The notes under the pieces: model-generated
Told to the model about the DNA's origin: nothing
The model's database searches: none
What the model saw: the letters and a program-made list of their open reading frames with translations, nothing else
Assembly (NCBI GenBank): GCA_005787035.1
Contig: SYCI01000044.1
Location: forward strand, 1-48,503
Direction of reading: 5' to 3'
DNA: 48,503 nt
DNA from: Actinomycetota bacterium
GTDB lineage: Bacteria > Actinomycetota > Acidimicrobiia > Acidimicrobiales > Ilumatobacteraceae
In this document: positions 3,164-47,169 of the stretch, one piece after another
How positions within the stretch are numbered: the first letter of the stretch is position 1
How the letters are laid out: every line of letters begins with the position of its first letter
Position numbers and translations under genes: made by a program

Positions 3164-3169
3164 AGACTA
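3164..3169 (-). promoter_or_regulatory. -10-like hexamer TAGTCT, 6 nt before the ATG at 3157
   Basis: TAGTCT followed by CTCCCC and the start codon fits a leaderless promoter. The first three bases are the TAG stop of the ABC-F gene that ends at 3167. Confidence 0.55.
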
Positions 3170-13109: not shown

Positions 13110-13115
13110 ATCATG
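13110..13115 (-). promoter_or_regulatory. -10-like hexamer CATGAT, 6 nt before the ATG at 13103
   Basis: Deviates at the first base from TANNNT but keeps A2 and T6 and the exact spacing seen for other genes here. Confidence 0.35.
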
Positions 13116-15573: not shown

Positions 15574-15579
15574 ACGCTA
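15574..15579 (-). promoter_or_regulatory. -10-like hexamer TAGCGT built on the stop codon of the GGDEF gene
   Basis: Located 9 nt before the GTG at 15564. The TAG is the terminator codon of the upstream gene. Confidence 0.35.
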
Positions 15580-16998: not shown

Positions 16999-17877
16999 TC
17001 AGCGGCGACCGAGGCGGGGGATCAGGAGCGGGGTGCGAGCGGTGTACTCGGCCCAGCCCGGCCGCCGCTCGGCGCTGCGCTTCTCCGCCATCGGAATGGA
17101 GGCGGTCAGGAACATGATCGTCATGGCCAGCGCCCCGATGCCCATCCACCACGATCCGGGGTCGGCGGCCACGGCGAACAAGAAGAGTCCCCACCACCAG
17201 AGCATCTCGCCCAGGTAATTGGGGTGTCGCGACCGCGACCACAGGCCGATGTCGAGGACGTCTCCGGGCTGCTTGGTCCGGTTGAAGCGACGCAGATCGA
17301 CGTCGGCGAAGTGTTCGAGTCCGGTTCCGAGGACCGTGACCGCGGCGGCGATCACGTCGAGGGCGCCGAACGACCGACCAGTCGACGTCGCGGCGGCGAC
17401 CATGGGCAGTGAACCGAGGGTCACGACCACGAGCGGGAAGAGATGTACCGAGGTGAGACTCACCAGCCAGCGGGGCATGGGGGTGTCCCGGTAGAGCTTC
17501 TGGTAACGCCAGTCCTCGTGGTGCAGACCGGGCCAGCCGATCGACCAATTGGCGGTGAGTCGGATCCCCCACGCCAGTGCACAGGCCACGACCAACCAAC
17601 GTCGGGTTCCATCACTCGCATCGTTGGCGATCGCGAACCAGATCGCGATGGCCGGGGGCATCACACTCCACCAAGCATCGAACGTGGATCCGTTCCCCAC
17701 GATCTGCGAGGCGATGTAGAGAAACACGACCGACGCTCCGTATCCACCGATGAGGGCGAGGATCGGGGAGTCGGTACCGATGAGCCCGGCGGCCACGATG
17801 CCGAGCGGAACCGCGATCGCGTAGAGGAGGACGATCAGAGCGAACGACCGGGTGCGAGAGCGAGGAGTCGAAGACAT
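16999..17877 (-). CDS. DUF1295 family membrane protein (methyltransferase/steroid-reductase-like fold)
   Basis: 292-aa polytopic protein. The conserved C-terminal block SRHPNYLGEMLWWWG and the end EKRSAERRPGWAEYTARTP are DUF1295 signatures; the fold is related to isoprenylcysteine methyltransferases and steroid 5-alpha-reductases, so the reaction is likely on a lipid, with SAM or NADPH. Start at 17877 is supported by AACAAT exactly 6 nt upstream; a further ATG at 17916 would add 13 residues. It is divergent from a PlsC-like gene and has a paralogue at 18949. Confidence 0.85.
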   Translation of the reverse strand: MSSTPRSRTRSFALIVLLYAIAVPLGIVAAGLIGTDSPILALIGGYGASVVFLYIASQIVGNGSTFDAWWSVMPPAIAIWFAIANDASDGTRRWLVVACALAWGIRLTANWSIGWPGLHHEDWRYQKLYRDTPMPRWLVSLTSVHLFPLVVVTLGSLPMVAAATSTGRSFGALDVIAAAVTVLGTGLEHFADVDLRRFNRTKQPGDVLDIGLWSRSRHPNYLGEMLWWWGLFLFAVAADPGSWWMGIGALAMTIMFLTASIPMAEKRSAERRPGWAEYTARTPLLIPRLGRR

Positions 17878-17883
17878 GACGTC

Positions 17884-17889
17884 ATTGTT
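17884..17889 (-). promoter_or_regulatory. -10-like hexamer AACAAT, 6 nt before the ATG at 17877
   Basis: Spacing matches the leaderless pattern and favours ATG 17877 over 17916. Confidence 0.35.
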
Positions 17890-17951: not shown

Positions 17952-17957
17952 TACGAT
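17952..17957 (+). promoter_or_regulatory. -10-like hexamer TACGAT, 6 nt before the ATG at 17964
   Basis: Good TANNNT match, no ribosome binding site between it and the start. Divergent partner of the hexamer at 17884. Confidence 0.5.
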
Positions 17958-17963
17958 CGGACC

Positions 17964-18947
17964 ATGAAGCGGCGCCTGATCTCGATCCCGGCGTTGTACG
18001 TCGGTGGTCTGCTGCTCGTGGCCCTGCTTCCCGTGTGGCTACCCGTTGTCGTACTGGTCGATCTCGTCCGCGGACGCCCCCGCCTACCCATCGCACGACT
18101 CCTCGGATTCGCGGTTCTGTGGGCGATCACCGAGATCATCGGGGTGTCGGCGGCGGCGATCTTCTGGATCACCGGTCAGTCGCGTCGGGTGTCGTTGCAC
18201 TTCGCACTTCAGCGTTGGTGGGCGAAGCGTCTCATGTGGGCTCTGCGCCTGACGTGTGGTGTGCGGGTTCAGGTGGAGAACGTGGAGGCCCTCCGCCCGG
18301 GGCCGACGGTTCTGCTCGCGCGTCATGCGAGCCTGGCCGATTCCTTGGTGTCGGCCTACGCGGTCACTTCCGGTGCGCGTCTGCGGCCCCGTTACGTCTT
18401 GAAACGCGAACTCTTGAGTGAACCGTGTCTCGATGTGGTGGGCAATCGTCTACCGAATCACTTCCTCGATCGCGGCGCCAACGATTCGGCGCCGGAACTG
18501 GCCGCCCTCACCGCGCTCACCGCAGAGATGGGTGCCGACGACATCGGAGTGATCTTCCCCGAGGGGACACGAGCGAATCCGGTGAAGCGTGAACGAGCAC
18601 TCGAGAAGATCGCCGCCGCTGATCCGGTCCGGGCCGAGCGACTACGCGTGCTCCGCCACCTTCTCCCGCCCCGACCGGCCGGTGCCGTGGCGATGTTGCG
18701 CGGCTGCCCGACCGCCGACGTGATCCTGGCCTGGCACGTGGGTTTCGAGGGGCTCGACACTTTCGGCGGGATCCTGCGAGCCGTTGGTCGGCCCTTGCGT
18801 CCGGTTCGGTTCGTCGTGCGGCGGGTTCCGCGGCACGAAGTTCCCGATGTCGGGACGGCCGACTCGACATCGTTCGTCGAATGGCTCGATCATCAATGGT
18901 TGCAGATGGACCGCGAAGTCGAAGCGGCGCTCTCGGAAAGGAACTGA
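17964..18947 (+). CDS. PlsC-like acyltransferase
   Basis: 327-aa glycerophospholipid-type acyltransferase. Two hydrophobic N-terminal helices anchor it, then HASLAD (Hx4D catalytic box) and FPEGTR (acyl-acceptor box) follow at the expected separation of about 80 residues. It could acylate lysophosphatidate or another hydroxylated lipid. The ATG at 17964 lies 6 nt after TACGAT. The next gene starts 1 nt after its stop, so it is coupled to the DUF1295 protein, which suggests both modify the same lipid. Confidence 0.88.
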   Translation: MKRRLISIPALYVGGLLLVALLPVWLPVVVLVDLVRGRPRLPIARLLGFAVLWAITEIIGVSAAAIFWITGQSRRVSLHFALQRWWAKRLMWALRLTCGVRVQVENVEALRPGPTVLLARHASLADSLVSAYAVTSGARLRPRYVLKRELLSEPCLDVVGNRLPNHFLDRGANDSAPELAALTALTAEMGADDIGVIFPEGTRANPVKRERALEKIAAADPVRAERLRVLRHLLPPRPAGAVAMLRGCPTADVILAWHVGFEGLDTFGGILRAVGRPLRPVRFVVRRVPRHEVPDVGTADSTSFVEWLDHQWLQMDREVEAALSERN

Positions 18948-19745: not shown

Positions 19746-19751
19746 TAGGGT
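19746..19751 (+). promoter_or_regulatory. -10-like hexamer TAGGGT, 6 nt before the GTG at 19758
   Basis: Flanked by a small inverted repeat ACTCA (19739-19743) / TGAGT (19751-19755). Confidence 0.5.
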
Positions 19752-21703: not shown

Positions 21704-21709
21704 TACGGT
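21704..21709 (+). promoter_or_regulatory. -10-like hexamer TACGGT, 6 nt before the ATG at 21716
   Basis: Lies in the 32-bp gap between divergent genes; no ribosome binding site. Confidence 0.45.
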
Positions 21710-22757: not shown

Positions 22758-22763
22758 CAGGAT
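22758..22763 (+). promoter_or_regulatory. -10-like hexamer CAGGAT, 6 nt before the ATG at 22770
   Basis: First base deviates from TANNNT; spacing is conserved. Confidence 0.35.
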
Positions 22764-24841: not shown

Positions 24842-24847
24842 ACCTTA
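24842..24847 (-). promoter_or_regulatory. -10-like hexamer TAAGGT, 6 nt before the ATG at 24835
   Basis: Perfect TANNNT on the minus strand. Confidence 0.5.
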
Positions 24848-25468: not shown

Positions 25469-25474
25469 TACGCT
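25469..25474 (+). promoter_or_regulatory. -10-like hexamer TACGCT, 6 nt before the GTG at 25481
   Basis: Decides the GTG start of the thiamine-binding gene. Confidence 0.5.
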
Positions 25475-32420: not shown

Positions 32421-32426
32421 ATTGTG
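32421..32426 (-). promoter_or_regulatory. -10-like hexamer CACAAT, 7 nt before the GH3 ATG
   Basis: The 7-mer CACAATC followed by 6 nt and ATG is identical to the one before the sulfatase gene (34560-34566). Confidence 0.4.
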
Positions 32427-33083: not shown

Positions 33084-34553
33084 TCAGTTGCGCCAAGGCA
33101 CGAAATCGGGCCAACGGCCCCGACCACCATCTTCGACCAACAGTCCGGTGTGGGTGCGGTCGGCGTGCCGACTTCGCCACACGAGCATGTCCTGGGTCAT
33201 ACGGAGAATGCGTGCCGGATCGGTGACGGGAGTTCGCCACGTGGGATCGGCACCGATGTCGAAGCACAACCACGACCCGTCGCCGAACTGAACGTAGGCG
33301 GTGTCGAGGGTTCGTCGCACCGCGAGGTGTTGTTGCTCGAGCCGTCGATCCCAGGGCCAGGGATACTCCCCGAAGGGAATGAGGGCGAACCGCCAGTCGA
33401 ACTCCCACGACGCCGCGTCACGCCACCAAGCCGGCTCCTCGCCATCGAGGAAGGGTGTGAGCGGTAGACCGTCGCATTGCAGAGGCACTGCTTGGCCGAG
33501 GGATTCGGCGAGGGTCGGCATCACGTCGACACTTTCGGTGAATCGATCGACGGTTCGACCGCCTCGGCGCCGAGGGTCTCGCCAGATGAGAGGGATGTGA
33601 TGACTCTCTTCGAACCAGCCCGCTTTCTGCACGAGCCCGTGATCACCGAGTTGCTCACCATGATCGGCGGTGACGACCACGATCGTGTCGTCCCACATTC
33701 CGAGATCCTGAAGCGTGCTCACGAGACGTCCGACCTCGTGGTCGACCGCGCTGATCATTCCGTAGTACTGGGCACGTACGTGCCGCATCTCGGAGTCGGT
33801 GGGCGGACGCTTCACCCAGTCGATCGCCATCAGGACATCGTGGAACGGATGCCGATCGTCAGCGGGGGCGATGGGCAGACCCACGTCGTCCGGGTCGTAC
33901 ATCGAGGAGAAGTGACCGGGAGCCGAATACGGCGGGTGGGGGCGGAGATAACTCGCGTGCACGAACCAAGGTTCGTCATCGGCACGGTTCCTGAGGTGGT
34001 CGATGATTCGATCGGTCATGAAGGCCGACAATCCGTGTTCGGCCGGCCGTTCGTTCTCGGTGGCGAGGAGACGTAGGTGTCCTCGACTCACGTCGTGACC
34101 CATCGCGTCGAGATGATCGACCCATGGCTGATGTGGTCCGCTGAGATCGAGCTTCCAGTCCATACCGGGCAGCAGGCCTTCGTAACTCAGCAGTCGCGGG
34201 TCGTCGGGGCCGGTGGCAACGCGTGGATCGATCGACTGGTCGGTGTAACCGAAGAGACAGGGCCGATAACCGGCGCGCCGGGCCAGACGGGCGACGTTGT
34301 CGAAGCGCTCGTCGAGTGGTGTCCCGTTGGCGACGACCCGGTGGTTCATCTGGTACATGCCGGTGTACAGGCCGGCCCGACCGGGTGCACATGGAGTCGA
34401 CTGCGTGTAGTGACGCGTGAAGTGCGTGCCGTGTCGAGCGAGAGCATCGAGGCTGGGAGTGCGCACCACTGGGTGGTCGAGACACGACAAGGAATCGCCG
34501 CGGAACTGATCGAGTGTGATGAAGAGAACGTTCAGGCCGCCGACACCGGACAT
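33084..34553 (-). CDS. Sulfatase (formylglycine-dependent)
   Basis: 489-aa type I sulfatase/alkaline-phosphatase-superfamily hydrolase. Cys55 in CAPGR is the C-x-P-x-R site turned to formylglycine; metal ligands are seen in NVLFITLDQ (Asp15) and in VVTADHGEQLGDHG. No signal peptide is predicted, so it is cytoplasmic. Could act on sulfated sugars or a phosphonate/phosphate monoester. Its position with fucosidase and GH3 suggests a sulfated glycan. ATG 34553 is chosen over TTG 34574 because CACAAT lies 7 nt before it. A maturase gene (sumf1-like) is not seen in the window. Confidence 0.92.
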   Translation of the reverse strand: MSGVGGLNVLFITLDQFRGDSLSCLDHPVVRTPSLDALARHGTHFTRHYTQSTPCAPGRAGLYTGMYQMNHRVVANGTPLDERFDNVARLARRAGYRPCLFGYTDQSIDPRVATGPDDPRLLSYEGLLPGMDWKLDLSGPHQPWVDHLDAMGHDVSRGHLRLLATENERPAEHGLSAFMTDRIIDHLRNRADDEPWFVHASYLRPHPPYSAPGHFSSMYDPDDVGLPIAPADDRHPFHDVLMAIDWVKRPPTDSEMRHVRAQYYGMISAVDHEVGRLVSTLQDLGMWDDTIVVVTADHGEQLGDHGLVQKAGWFEESHHIPLIWRDPRRRGGRTVDRFTESVDVMPTLAESLGQAVPLQCDGLPLTPFLDGEEPAWWRDAASWEFDWRFALIPFGEYPWPWDRRLEQQHLAVRRTLDTAYVQFGDGSWLCFDIGADPTWRTPVTDPARILRMTQDMLVWRSRHADRTHTGLLVEDGGRGRWPDFVPWRN

Positions 34554-34560
34554 GAGGCTG

Positions 34561-34566
34561 ATTGTG
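34561..34566 (-). promoter_or_regulatory. -10-like hexamer CACAAT, 7 nt before the sulfatase ATG
   Basis: Same sequence and spacing as before GH3. Confidence 0.4.
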
Positions 34567-35657: not shown

Positions 35658-36224
35658 TCAGGGTACTTGTGGGCTGCCGCCGGCGACGAATACTCGAGCG
35701 CGGTAGAAGCGCAGTTCTTCGATGCTCTGGCGGATGTCGTCGAGGGCGCGATGCGTTCCGCCCTTGTGGGGCCGGGAGCTGTCGGTGCCCGGGTACCAAC
35801 GCTTCACGAGTTCTTTGATCGTCGAGACGTCGACCGATCGGTAGTGGAGGTGGTTCTCGATGTCGGGCAGATACTTCGCGAGGAATCTCCGGTCGGTCCC
35901 GATCGAGTTACCGCACAGCGGGACGGTTCGGGCCTCGGGTACGTGTTGCTTGATGAATTCGAGGGTGCGCTTTCCGGCTTCGTCGAGGGTGAGGGTCGAC
36001 ACCTTGATGGCCTCGAGCAAACCCGACTTCGTGTGCATGTCGACGACGAAGGGATCCATGGCGGCCAAGACCTCGGCGGGAGCTTGGACAACCAGATCCG
36101 GTCCCTCGGCGACGATGTTGAGTTCGTCGTCGGTGACGATGGTGGCGATCTCGACGATCACCTCTTTCTCGTGATCGAGCCCCGTCATCTCGAGATCCAT
36201 CCACACCAGCACGTCTCCGACCAT
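35658..36224 (-). CDS. orn: Oligoribonuclease
   Basis: 188-aa DEDDh 3'-5' exoribonuclease that degrades di- to pentanucleotides, including pGpG from c-di-GMP turnover. WMDLEMTGLD (Asp10, Glu12), GNSIGTDRRFL and HRALDDI carry the four acids and the catalytic His. Length matches E. coli Orn (181 aa). ATG at 36224 without clear ribosome binding site; divergent from dut by 64 bp. Confidence 0.95.
   Translation of the reverse strand: MVGDVLVWMDLEMTGLDHEKEVIVEIATIVTDDELNIVAEGPDLVVQAPAEVLAAMDPFVVDMHTKSGLLEAIKVSTLTLDEAGKRTLEFIKQHVPEARTVPLCGNSIGTDRRFLAKYLPDIENHLHYRSVDVSTIKELVKRWYPGTDSSRPHKGGTHRALDDIRQSIEELRFYRARVFVAGGSPQVP
35660..35665 (-). promoter_or_regulatory. -10-like hexamer TACCCT, 6 nt before the GTG at 35653
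   Basis: Overlaps the last codons of orn (the T at 35660 is the first base of its TGA), so the downstream MBL gene would start from within orn. Confidence 0.5.
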
Positions 36225-36276
36225 ACGCCATCGATGTGGGATCGCCCCGACACGGATGAGCAGGAGTCGCGTTGTC

Positions 36277-36282
36277 TATCGT
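36277..36282 (+). promoter_or_regulatory. -10-like hexamer TATCGT, 6 nt before the dut ATG
   Basis: Good TANNNT match with exact spacing; no ribosome binding site. Confidence 0.5.
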
Positions 36283-37530: not shown

Positions 37531-37536
37531 TAGCGT
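37531..37536 (+). promoter_or_regulatory. -10-like hexamer TAGCGT, 7 nt before the cdd ATG
   Basis: TANNNT match; spacing one longer than most. Confidence 0.45.
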
Positions 37537-37981: not shown

Positions 37982-38709
37982 CCGATCGCGGTTCGGTCGC
38001 CCGTCGTGCGCTCGGGCTGCTCGACCTGACCGACCTTTCAGACGATTGCACCGTCGAATCGGTGTCCGACCTCTGCCGACGCGCGGTCAGTCCTCATGGC
38101 CACGTCGCGGCGGTGTGCGTGTGGCCACGTTTCGTTCGTTCGGCCAAAGAGGCGTTGGCGGGAACTCCGGTACGCGTGGCCACGGTGGTGAATTTTCCGT
38201 CCGGGGACGAGGGCATCGACGACGTCGTGACCATGACGCGCCGGGCGATCGACGATGGCGCCGATGAGATCGATGTCGTGATTCCGTATCGGGCGGTACT
38301 GACCGGGGACGAGGCCCGCGCCGTCGGGATGCTCAGGGCTGTTCGACGAGTCGCGTCTCATCCGATTCTTCTGAAGGTGATCCTCGAAACCGGTGAGTTG
38401 CCCGACGATGCGACGATCGCCCGCTGTTCACGTCTGGCCATCGCCGCCGGTACCGATTTCATCAAGACCTCGACGGGCAAGACCAAGATCTCGGCGACAG
38501 TGGAAGCCGTGGCGACGATGCTCTCGGTGATCGCGAAAACGCCTCGAACGGTCGGCATCAAACCATCGGGCGGCATCAAGTCGTTGGACGATGCGGCGCG
38601 CTACCTCGCCGTTGCCGATCGGATCATGGGAACCGATTGGGTGAGCCCGTCGACTTTCCGTTTCGGCGCGAGTGGCTTGCTCGGCGGGATCCTCGACGAA
38701 CTGTCGTAG
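37978..38709 (+). CDS. deoC: Deoxyribose-phosphate aldolase
   Basis: 243-aa class I aldolase splitting deoxyribose 5-phosphate into glyceraldehyde 3-phosphate and acetaldehyde. Schiff-base Lys163 in GTDFIKTSTGK, Asp99 in DEIDVVIP and the second Lys in GIKPSGGIK are present. The ATG overlaps the cdd stop. Its own TAG stop begins the -10-like hexamer TAGTCT of the next gene. Confidence 0.95.
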   Translation: MTDRGSVARRALGLLDLTDLSDDCTVESVSDLCRRAVSPHGHVAAVCVWPRFVRSAKEALAGTPVRVATVVNFPSGDEGIDDVVTMTRRAIDDGADEIDVVIPYRAVLTGDEARAVGMLRAVRRVASHPILLKVILETGELPDDATIARCSRLAIAAGTDFIKTSTGKTKISATVEAVATMLSVIAKTPRTVGIKPSGGIKSLDDAARYLAVADRIMGTDWVSPSTFRFGASGLLGGILDELS

Positions 38710-38712
38710 TCT
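38707..38712 (+). promoter_or_regulatory. -10-like hexamer TAGTCT, 6 nt before the ATG at 38719, built on the deoC stop
   Basis: First three bases are the deoC TAG stop codon. No ribosome binding site. Confidence 0.5.
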
Positions 38713-40667: not shown

Positions 40668-41141
40668 TCAGCGCAGACGCTTCACCATCAAACTGACGAT
40701 CTTGCCCGGTCGCGTCTCGAGTTGGTCGACCTCGACGAATCCCTCGCGCGCGTGGAACCGAAGCGAGCCTTCGTTGAGCGGCTTGACGTTGACCTCGAGT
40801 GTGAACCACTCGGCGGTGGTTCGTCGTTCGACCTCGCGGTAGAGGAGCGGGCCGATTCCGCGTCGTTGATGCGATTCGCTCACCGCGACGCGGTCGAGAT
40901 AGGTGAAGTCGTCGTAGTTGTCGCAGAAGTACAGATAGTTGGGACTGTCGTACGAGGTTCCGGGCGGAAGCACCATGCAGAAGCCCCGGATCTCGTCGTC
41001 GGCGGCCACGAGCGCGATCGTGCACATGTGGAAGATCTCCTCGATGCTCGACCGGGTCTCCGTTCCGACCGCGGGAACGTTCGCCTGATTGATGGCCCAC
41101 ACGGTGTCGAGATCGGTGTGGACCATGTCGCGGATGTGCAC
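40668..41141 (-). CDS. GNAT family N-acetyltransferase
   Basis: 157-aa acetyl-CoA-dependent transferase. DRVAVSESHQRRGIGPLLY is motif A with the QRRGIG pyrophosphate loop; the end SLRFHAREGFVEVDQ is motif B. The acceptor is unknown. I choose GTG 41141 (start of protein: V/M-HIRDMVHTDLDTVW) because TACATT lies exactly 6 nt before it; a GTG at 41162 would place this hexamer inside the coding sequence, and the extra 7 residues look non-domain. Confidence 0.85.
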   Translation of the reverse strand: MHIRDMVHTDLDTVWAINQANVPAVGTETRSSIEEIFHMCTIALVAADDEIRGFCMVLPPGTSYDSPNYLYFCDNYDDFTYLDRVAVSESHQRRGIGPLLYREVERRTTAEWFTLEVNVKPLNEGSLRFHAREGFVEVDQLETRPGKIVSLMVKRLR

Positions 41142-41147
41142 GACTCG

Positions 41148-41153
41148 AATGTA
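41148..41153 (-). promoter_or_regulatory. -10-like hexamer TACATT, 6 nt before the GTG at 41141
   Basis: Back to back with the forward hexamer at 41185; decides the GNAT start. Confidence 0.45.
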
Positions 41154-41184: not shown

Positions 41185-41190
41185 TAATCT
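41185..41190 (+). promoter_or_regulatory. -10-like hexamer TAATCT, 6 nt before the GTG at 41197
   Basis: Close to consensus TANNNT; no ribosome binding site for the ABC gene. Confidence 0.5.
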
Positions 41191-43715: not shown

Positions 43716-43721
43716 TAACCT
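43716..43721 (+). promoter_or_regulatory. -10-like hexamer TAACCT, 6 nt before the msrA ATG
   Basis: TANNNT with exact spacing. A separate promoter makes msrA independent of the exporter operon. Confidence 0.5.
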
Positions 43722-47163: not shown

Positions 47164-47169
47164 TACCTT
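47164..47169 (+). promoter_or_regulatory. -10-like hexamer TACCTT, 7 nt before the GTG at 47177
   Basis: Supports the GTG start of the channel-like gene. Confidence 0.4.

Follow-up and report, generated by a model that had tools for sequence, protein, structure and literature searches.

Putative −10 elements adjoining start codons, and their sharing of bases with upstream stop codons, in an Ilumatobacteraceae-related MAG

The hexamer TANNNT, which stands a short and nearly fixed distance before many start codons in the genome of an apparently uncultured actinobacterium, is very probably the −10 element of the main promoter of this lineage, a promoter that lacks a −35 box and gives rise to leaderless transcripts. 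Roughly three genes in ten would carry this minimal promoter, with the predicted 5′ end of the mRNA on the start codon. The window that we analysed, a stretch of 48,503 nt, belongs to a MAG related to Ilumatobacteraceae. A first-pass annotation of this DNA had read hexamers of this type, placed 6–7 nt before 19 start codons, as a sign of leaderless transcription; the results below support this reading as real, strong and correctly interpreted, for what would be a known kind of promoter. The part worth following is the fusion of the hexamer to the stop codon of the preceding gene.

In the mechanism that we propose, the hexamer would be the −10 element of a housekeeping-type promoter that works without a −35 box. 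RNA polymerase would open the DNA at T(−12)A(−11)NNNT(−7), and transcription would start on the purine of the ATG or GTG codon, 7 (sometimes 8–10) nt after the last T and preferably after a C. The mRNA would begin with the start codon and be translated without a Shine-Dalgarno (SD) site. Leaderless genes would lie mostly at divergent starts or at short gaps behind another gene, and overlapping genes would use SD-like sites. Four features can be read from the DNA itself: where the putative −10 element stands, its conservation, the missing −35 box and the depletion of the hexamer within genes. What we infer from mycobacteria, other actinobacteria and Deinococcus is that the element acts as a promoter, where exactly its transcripts start, which sigma factor it uses and that they are translated without a leader.

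Spacing of the hexamer before start codons

Each of the 19 positions listed in the first-pass annotation is an ATG or GTG that lies in frame within an open frame, and its tally of 15 cases at spacing 6 and 4 at spacing 7 (nucleotides between hexamer and start codon) is correct for hexamers that are "TANNNT-like". Exact TANNNT is present at 14 of the 19, in 12 cases at spacing 6 and in two at spacing 7 (37544 and 47177). The remaining five have NANNNT (at spacing 6, CATGAT before 13103, AACAAT before 17877 and CAGGAT before 22770; at spacing 7, CACAAT before both 32413 and 34553), and because NANNNT is frequent by chance, these five cases are individually weak. A Pfam scan of the 19 listed proteins and one neighbour placed 15 of the 19 above the family's curated cut-off, mostly as ordinary enzymes; 13103, 19758 and 25481 had no family at E <= 0.001, and 47177 had only matches below the cut-off. 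The putative −10 elements of the window are as follows.

17952..17957, + strand: TACGAT, spacing 6 before ATG 17964, acyltransferase (Pfam PF01553); the element singled out in the first-pass annotation
17884..17889, − strand: variant AACAAT, spacing 6 before ATG 17877, DUF1295 gene, divergent to 17964
3164..3169, − strand: TAGTCT, spacing 6 before ATG 3157
38707..38712, + strand: TAGTCT, spacing 6 before ATG 38719, aminotransferase; the TAG of the upstream stop provides the TA
15574..15579, − strand: TAGCGT, spacing 9 before GTG 15564; a stop fusion is also found before the matching gene in locus L185 of G019
35660..35665, − strand: TACCCT, spacing 6 before GTG 35653; the TGA stop of the gene upstream begins with the last T of the hexamer
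36277..36282, + strand: TATCGT, spacing 6 before ATG 36289, dUTPase
19746..19751, + strand: TAGGGT, spacing 6 before GTG 19758; motif-blind caller, 19809
21704..21709, + strand: TACGGT, spacing 6 before ATG 21716, cyclase
24842..24847, − strand: TAAGGT, spacing 6 before ATG 24835, peptidase M20
25469..25474, + strand: TACGCT, spacing 6 before GTG 25481, without Pfam family; motif-blind caller, 25430
37531..37536, + strand: TAGCGT, spacing 7 before ATG 37544, cytidine deaminase
41148..41153, − strand: TACATT, spacing 6 before GTG 41141, GNAT, divergent partner of 41197; motif-blind caller, 41162
41185..41190, + strand: TAATCT, spacing 6 before GTG 41197, ABC transporter
43716..43721, + strand: TAACCT, spacing 6 before ATG 43728, methionine sulfoxide reductase
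47164..47169, + strand: TACCTT, spacing 7 before GTG 47177; motif-blind caller, 47216
13110..13115, − strand: variant CATGAT, spacing 6 before ATG 13103
22758..22763, + strand: variant CAGGAT, spacing 6 before ATG 22770, SDR
32421..32426, − strand: variant CACAAT, spacing 7 before ATG 32413, GH3
34561..34566, − strand: variant CACAAT, spacing 7 before ATG 34553, sulfatase
36220..36225, − strand: TATGGT, possible and uncertain, spacing 7 before an alternative GTG 36212 of an exonuclease gene, whose called start is ATG 36224

Since some of the listed starts had been chosen with the motif in mind, we wrote a gene caller that is blind to it and uses codon log-odds and a start-codon prior only. This caller gave the same start for 14 of the 19 and another one at 17877, 19758, 25481, 41141 and 47177. 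With motif-blind starts, TANNNT at spacing 6 or 7 was found in 10 of the 49 genes of the window, which exceeds the maximum of 3 (mean 0.32) obtained with 1000 dinucleotide shuffles, the comparison with shuffled upstream regions that the annotation had proposed. The motif had also changed three of its gene calls. The call at 34553 is identical to that of the motif-blind caller, and the call at 17877 is supported by relatives, in 14 of 18 of which the divergent frame begins 6 nt after CAAGAT, CATGAT or CAAAAT, with no such start in the other 4; the search pattern of this count was picked after the AACAAT of the window was known, and the N-termini were taken as homologous on visual inspection. 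At 41141 the evidence is divided, as exact TACATT stands at spacing 6 but the motif-blind caller prefers 41162.

The counts were extended to a sample of the same MAG (G000: the window and 60 further stretches; 661,655 bases, 657 genes), in which 609 genes had a called start and 60 nt upstream; starts running off a stretch were left out everywhere. TANNNT was present at spacings 6, 7, 8 and 9 before 73, 32, 18 and 11 of these 609 motif-blind starts, and any other spacing between 0 and 29 had 0–3 cases; internal ATG and GTG codons (n = 9254) predict only 0.0–0.5 per spacing. A sharp peak by offset, which the annotation had named as the deciding test, is thus seen with motif-blind starts and has an abrupt edge. 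Its claim of a strict spacing of 6–7 nt holds for the peak, but a real tail reaches 8–9, so the spacing is less strict than claimed. In 20 contigs added later (154 kb with 143 genes, called with an unchanged codon model) the counts at spacings 6, 7, 8 and 9 were 21, 6, 3 and 5, with 0 or 1 at other spacings from 0 to 24. When any in-frame ATG or GTG between −90 and +60 relative to the called start was allowed, 181 of 631 genes had TANNNT at spacings 6–9, compared with 4, 18, 7 and 17 of the same genes for four sets of wrong spacings; the corresponding numbers in the later contigs were 46 of 151 versus 1, 0 and 3. TTG was absent from the 134 motif-bearing starts, and it made up 8 of the 609 called starts overall, being penalised by the caller, so that its absence is a weak argument; in 40 Acidimicrobiia-type loci, 2 of 99 were TTG.

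The suggestion that starts might be annotated by rule was borne out on both strands of the sample, where TANNNT-N6-RTG marked an in-frame gene 5′ end at 96 of 109 sites (73 called starts, 13 in-frame upstream of the call and 10 in-frame near the 5′ end). The same was true of 56 of 69 sites at spacing 7, 24 of 32 at spacing 8 and 16 of 27 at spacing 9. At spacings 3–5 and 10–13 there were 10–24 TANNNT-RTG sites each, mostly away from gene 5′ ends. The rule is practicable for annotating starts in a group of actinobacteria that is represented here mostly by MAGs. The accompanying statement that such genes have no SD site proved broadly right, in that an SD-like 4-mer precedes 12 of the 105 genes with TANNNT at spacing 6 or 7 in the genome sample.

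Evidence for a −10 element and competing explanations

No column exceeded 0.04 bits in a −35 search covering 45 to 5 nt before the putative −10 element in 310 aligned cases, whose starts had been refined with the help of the motif. A hidden −35 box was also ruled out in the 134 cases of the genome sample, where TTG, TTGA, TTGAC and others were flat by spacer length. The base at −1 was C in 112 of the 134 motif genes and in 49% of 468 genes without the motif; C at −1 was also found in 45 of 61 cases in G019 and 33 of 35 in the later contigs, and was weaker in G035 (13 of 25) and Naasia (17 of 27).

Within coding DNA the hexamer is strongly depleted. In codon phase 0 of the sense strand, TANNNT occurred 90 times versus 527 expected after synonymous shuffling (ratio 0.17), and on the antisense strand 26 times versus 349 expected (ratio 0.07). 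The sense controls TANNNA, TANNNC and TANNNG gave ratios of 1.11–1.12, and the same T placed one codon further gave 0.96; the antisense controls were 1.03–1.14 for other bases and 0.86 for one codon further. The phase-0 controls TA..T and TA....T were dropped in favour of these third-position controls, as their bases are (nearly) fixed by the amino acids, which makes a ratio of about 1 trivial. An avoidance restricted to spacing 6 inside genes was ruled out, the hexamer being avoided at all spacings from 0 to 20. The sense and antisense ratios elsewhere were 0.19 and 0.10 in G019, 0.37 and 0.30 in Naasia and 0.67 and 0.71 in alphaproteobacterial loci, the depletion being less specific in the last two, where controls were below 1 too (for instance TANNNA at 0.56 and 0.75, and the T shifted by one codon at 0.76 and 0.75). 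Because TANNNT is avoided on both strands, the signal appears to act on DNA, and its purging from coding DNA fits what is expected of a promoter that would need no −35 box. In M. tuberculosis, according to passages of PMC3898074 and PMC10653884, a −10 element is sufficient without a −35 box; the latter also describes the −10 hexamer as rare in genes in all three frames, a likeness to the present case, in which the depletion is quantified by synonymous shuffles, on both strands and in another lineage.

Two explanations would dispense with the promoter altogether. One could argue that starts were picked because TANNNT happened to be nearby, and the 5 of 19 listed starts that differ from those of the motif-blind caller speak for such a selection; we regard this as next to impossible, given that the peak is obtained from motif-blind starts alone, be it in the window, in the genome sample or in the later contigs, counts that refute an artefact of start choice, and that internal ATG and GTG codons and wrong spacings yield little. 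Alternatively, TANNNT might lie within a longer 5′ leader and guide the ribosome at the RNA level, transcription starting further upstream. The movement of the motif together with the start codon between species is what this explanation would predict, yet it is highly improbable in our judgement: the hexamer is purged from the antisense strand of genes as well, which is absent from the gene's own mRNA; it is almost missing before overlapping genes, where a signal for the ribosome would still be needed; and a C precedes the start codon, as it does before a purine at a transcript start.

A third possibility concerns part of the cases and keeps the promoter. If transcription began at a fixed point 7 nt after the last T, only spacing 6 would be leaderless, and spacings 7–9 would give leaders of 1–3 nt. 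We consider this doubtful, though it deserves some weight: 61 of the 134 cases are at spacings 7–9, a larger share of starts is ATG at spacings 8–9 (23 of 29) than at spacing 6 (37 of 73), and C at −1 becomes less frequent with distance (88% at spacings 6 and 7, 72% at spacing 8, 64% at spacing 9). Against it, the C at −1 tracks the start codon and not the −10 element at spacings 7–9, which points to a transcript start that moves along with the codon. In the spacing-9 class, a look for unusual codons at spacing 6 showed none that recurred consistently.

The annotation had noted that leaderless transcripts are known in actinobacteria, and passages of PMC3160421, PMC3898074, PMC4633059 and PMC12340547 do describe them there, in mycobacteria and in Deinococcus. 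In mycobacteria (Cortes 2013, PMC3898074; Shell 2015, PMC4633059), as here, excerpts report TANNNT, no conserved −35 box and C as the commonest base at −1; among genes for which a primary transcript start is given, 26% are leaderless there, and ATG or GTG is needed at +1. The mycobacterial cases have mapped 5′ ends and reporters, whereas the present one is known from its sequence. The −10 elements adjoining ORFs in Deinococcus-Thermus, as presented in parts of PMC12340547, are likewise TANNNT, mostly without a classical −35 box and at about 30% of ORFs; they belong to another phylum, and their promoter activity was demonstrated with reporters.

Conservation and distribution among relatives

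At the acyltransferase gene (17964), TANNNT stands 6 nt (16 cases) or 7 nt (2 cases) before the same ATG in 18 of 18 same-genus relatives, with the start set by alignment (18 of 25 matching relatives were taken; same genus, match from residue 1, except one G022 match at a contig end). Over the 19 sequences A−11 is identical in all, and T−12 and T−7 are identical in 17, the exceptions being the rows of spacing 7; positions −8, −4, −3 and −2 vary freely. Two further counts took any in-frame motif start over a range of codons, so that some chance matches are possible among them: for the aminotransferase, 34 of 38 related loci (of 40 of Acidimicrobiia type, L107 and L108 being left out) had TANNNT 6–8 nt ahead of an in-frame start, the start codon moving from −8 to +4 codons, and for the dUTPase it was at spacing 6 or 7 in 29 of 30 loci (own included; cut from 55 genomes with a match), 28 of them at exactly 6, with starts moving from −7 to +11 codons.

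A gene that we take to be cysS has TANNNT at spacing 6 (8 genomes) or 8 (13 genomes) in 21 of 21 genomes, made up of 20 of 60 matching relatives and the MAG itself. On its other side lies a divergent gene, presumably for a valyl-tRNA-synthetase-like protein, whose start has TANNNT in 19 of the 21. In 17 of 17 same-genus genomes, own included (L044 274–311; L257–L271, L273), the two genes are 36–50 bp apart, and the gap has TANNNT on each strand, 6–8 nt from its own start codon.

The best matches of the window's aminotransferase are in MAGs titled Acidimicrobiales, Ilumatobacteraceae, Acidimicrobiaceae or Actinomycetota, followed by Microbacteriaceae and others and then by Acetobacteraceae, a placement of the window by similarity that refers to this one protein; a 16S search in the MAG gave no match. 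Of 80 aminotransferase loci, 40 of Acidimicrobiia type, 10 from other actinobacteria and 21 alphaproteobacterial were used, and nine were left out (L086, L106, L110, L113, L114, L116, L118, L119 and L120). L086 is a MAG titled Bifidobacterium breve, whose aminotransferase (65% identity) ranks among those of Acidimicrobiia-type MAGs; the label is possibly wrong. The peak at spacings 6–9 was also present in the 40 Acidimicrobiia-type loci. At spacings 6, 7, 8 and 9 we counted 30, 20, 3 and 8 in G019 (same genus, 342 genes), 13, 8, 0 and 4 in G035 (same family, 160 genes) and 15, 7, 3 and 2 in Naasia, another actinobacterium (360 genes). The 21 alphaproteobacterial loci, with 1, 0, 4 and 2 of 213 genes, showed no peak at 6–7. 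G038 (same order, 75% GC; L202–L211), with 3, 2, 0 and 0, was almost without a peak, and since only 5 of its 138 genes have the hexamer, the feature does not hold throughout the order.

The closest description is that of TA-led genes in Actinobacteria and Deinococcus-Thermus (Zheng et al. 2011, PMC3160421), in passages of which the first T of TANNNT lies about 12 bp before the start and the promoter adjoins the start codon, as here. The present case differs from these passages in its Ilumatobacteraceae-like lineage, the tail to spacing 9 and the bases shared with upstream stops. The string "acidimicrobi" is absent from the main text of PMC3160421, and a literature search, with the genome list of Zheng 2011 outside what was covered, found no account of leaderless promoters for Acidimicrobiia; SD usage for this class is given in part of PMC10783764.

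Gene context and fusion to upstream stop codons

Among genes overlapping the one upstream (n = 110), the motif was present before 2%, compared with 28% of 87 genes behind a gap of 13–39 nt, 10% of 42 genes behind a co-directional gap of at least 100 nt and 37% of 204 divergent starts. SD-like 4-mers were present at 49%, 29%, 36% and 16% of these four classes, respectively, and at 12% of internal codons. The opposite behaviour of the two signals suggests two start systems in the genome, split by gene position, and promoter-bearing genes would be separable from overlapping SD-led genes by sequence alone. The rarity of the motif behind long co-directional gaps suggests that leadered promoters also exist; the 10% of 42 long-gap genes is fewer than a simple rule based on the first gene of a unit predicts, and counts against such a rule.

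In the 82 co-directional cases of G000, G019 and G035 with an upstream stop at offsets from −40 to +12, the stop fell exactly on the TA of the putative −10 element in 23 (18 TAG, 5 TAA), and at any other offset in 4 or fewer each; 16 of the 23 are at a motif-blind start. Because a TAG or TAA stop provides TA for free, the spike alone could reflect opportunity, and a motif-free test was therefore used. In motif-blind pairs with gaps of 9–12 nt, TAG or TAA made up 18 of 33 upstream stops, compared with 92 of the 671 stops at the remaining gaps (Fisher p = 1.2e-7), and at gap 9 the T completing the hexamer was present behind 8 of 9 TAG/TAA stops. The same test gave 4 of 5 versus 7 of 85 in the later contigs (p = 6e-4) and 1 of 2 versus 34 of 249 in Naasia, too few to inform. 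Of the single data sets, only G000 gave a significant T6 test of stop fusion by itself (p = 9e-6), and the 40 Acidimicrobiia-type loci gave a weak one (p = 0.046); with the small numbers of G000b, G019, G035, Naasia, G038, the ten other-actinobacteria loci and the alphaproteobacterial loci it was not significant.

Fused junctions common to G000 and G019 occur before three genes, recognised by their N-termini, with the upstream genes outside the comparison. At the aminotransferase junction, in nine genomes with a recognisable upstream gene, the TAG stop provides the TA in the window and L069, the T of TGA is the last base of the putative −10 element in L062–L064, and the stop lies 11–20 nt before it in L065–L068; in 26 further aminotransferase loci the upstream gene had no match. 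It is likely that a fused tandem pair represents two transcription units joined by a 9-nt spacer and not an operon, and that from one related species to another such fusions arise, shift (with the T of TGA taking the place of the final T in the −10 element) and are lost. Tight tandem genes need not be operons, as many would have their own promoter just after, or inside, the previous stop, and stop-codon usage would thereby be linked to transcription of the next gene, a link that is directly testable. A literature search found no description of a stop codon serving as the TA of the next gene's −10 element. In parts of PMC2784483, stops overlap the SD site of the next gene, which is similar in that the stop doubles as a start signal and stop usage is biased at certain gaps; that overlap involves a ribosome site, whereas the one proposed here involves a promoter −10 element.

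Stops 1–6 nt before a leaderless −10 candidate were absent from G000, G019 and G035, though offsets −7 to −13 have 1–4 each; the later contigs have one upstream stop at offset −4.

No single peak was found in the distance between divergent starts. Seven divergent pairs (3 in G000, 2 in G019 and 2 in G035) have start codons 17–23 bp apart and TANNNT overlapping on opposite strands; in six the start was moved from the motif-blind call, and the seventh, in L039, has a partner of 68 aa. Bidirectional promoters, as described in part of PMC10268837, have opposite-strand −10 elements that share bases and transcript starts 7–25 bp apart. The few divergent pairs here whose putative −10 elements share bases may resemble these symmetrical −10 elements, with the difference that both of their predicted transcripts would begin on start codons. 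A possible start of the exonuclease gene at GTG 36212 instead of ATG 36224 would make the dUTPase/exonuclease pair of the window leaderless on both sides. At L039:18297-18315, the divergent start codons are 17 bp apart, the predicted transcript starts are 18 bp apart, and both putative −10 elements are contained in one heptamer, TAGCGTA; one of the two genes encodes 68 aa.
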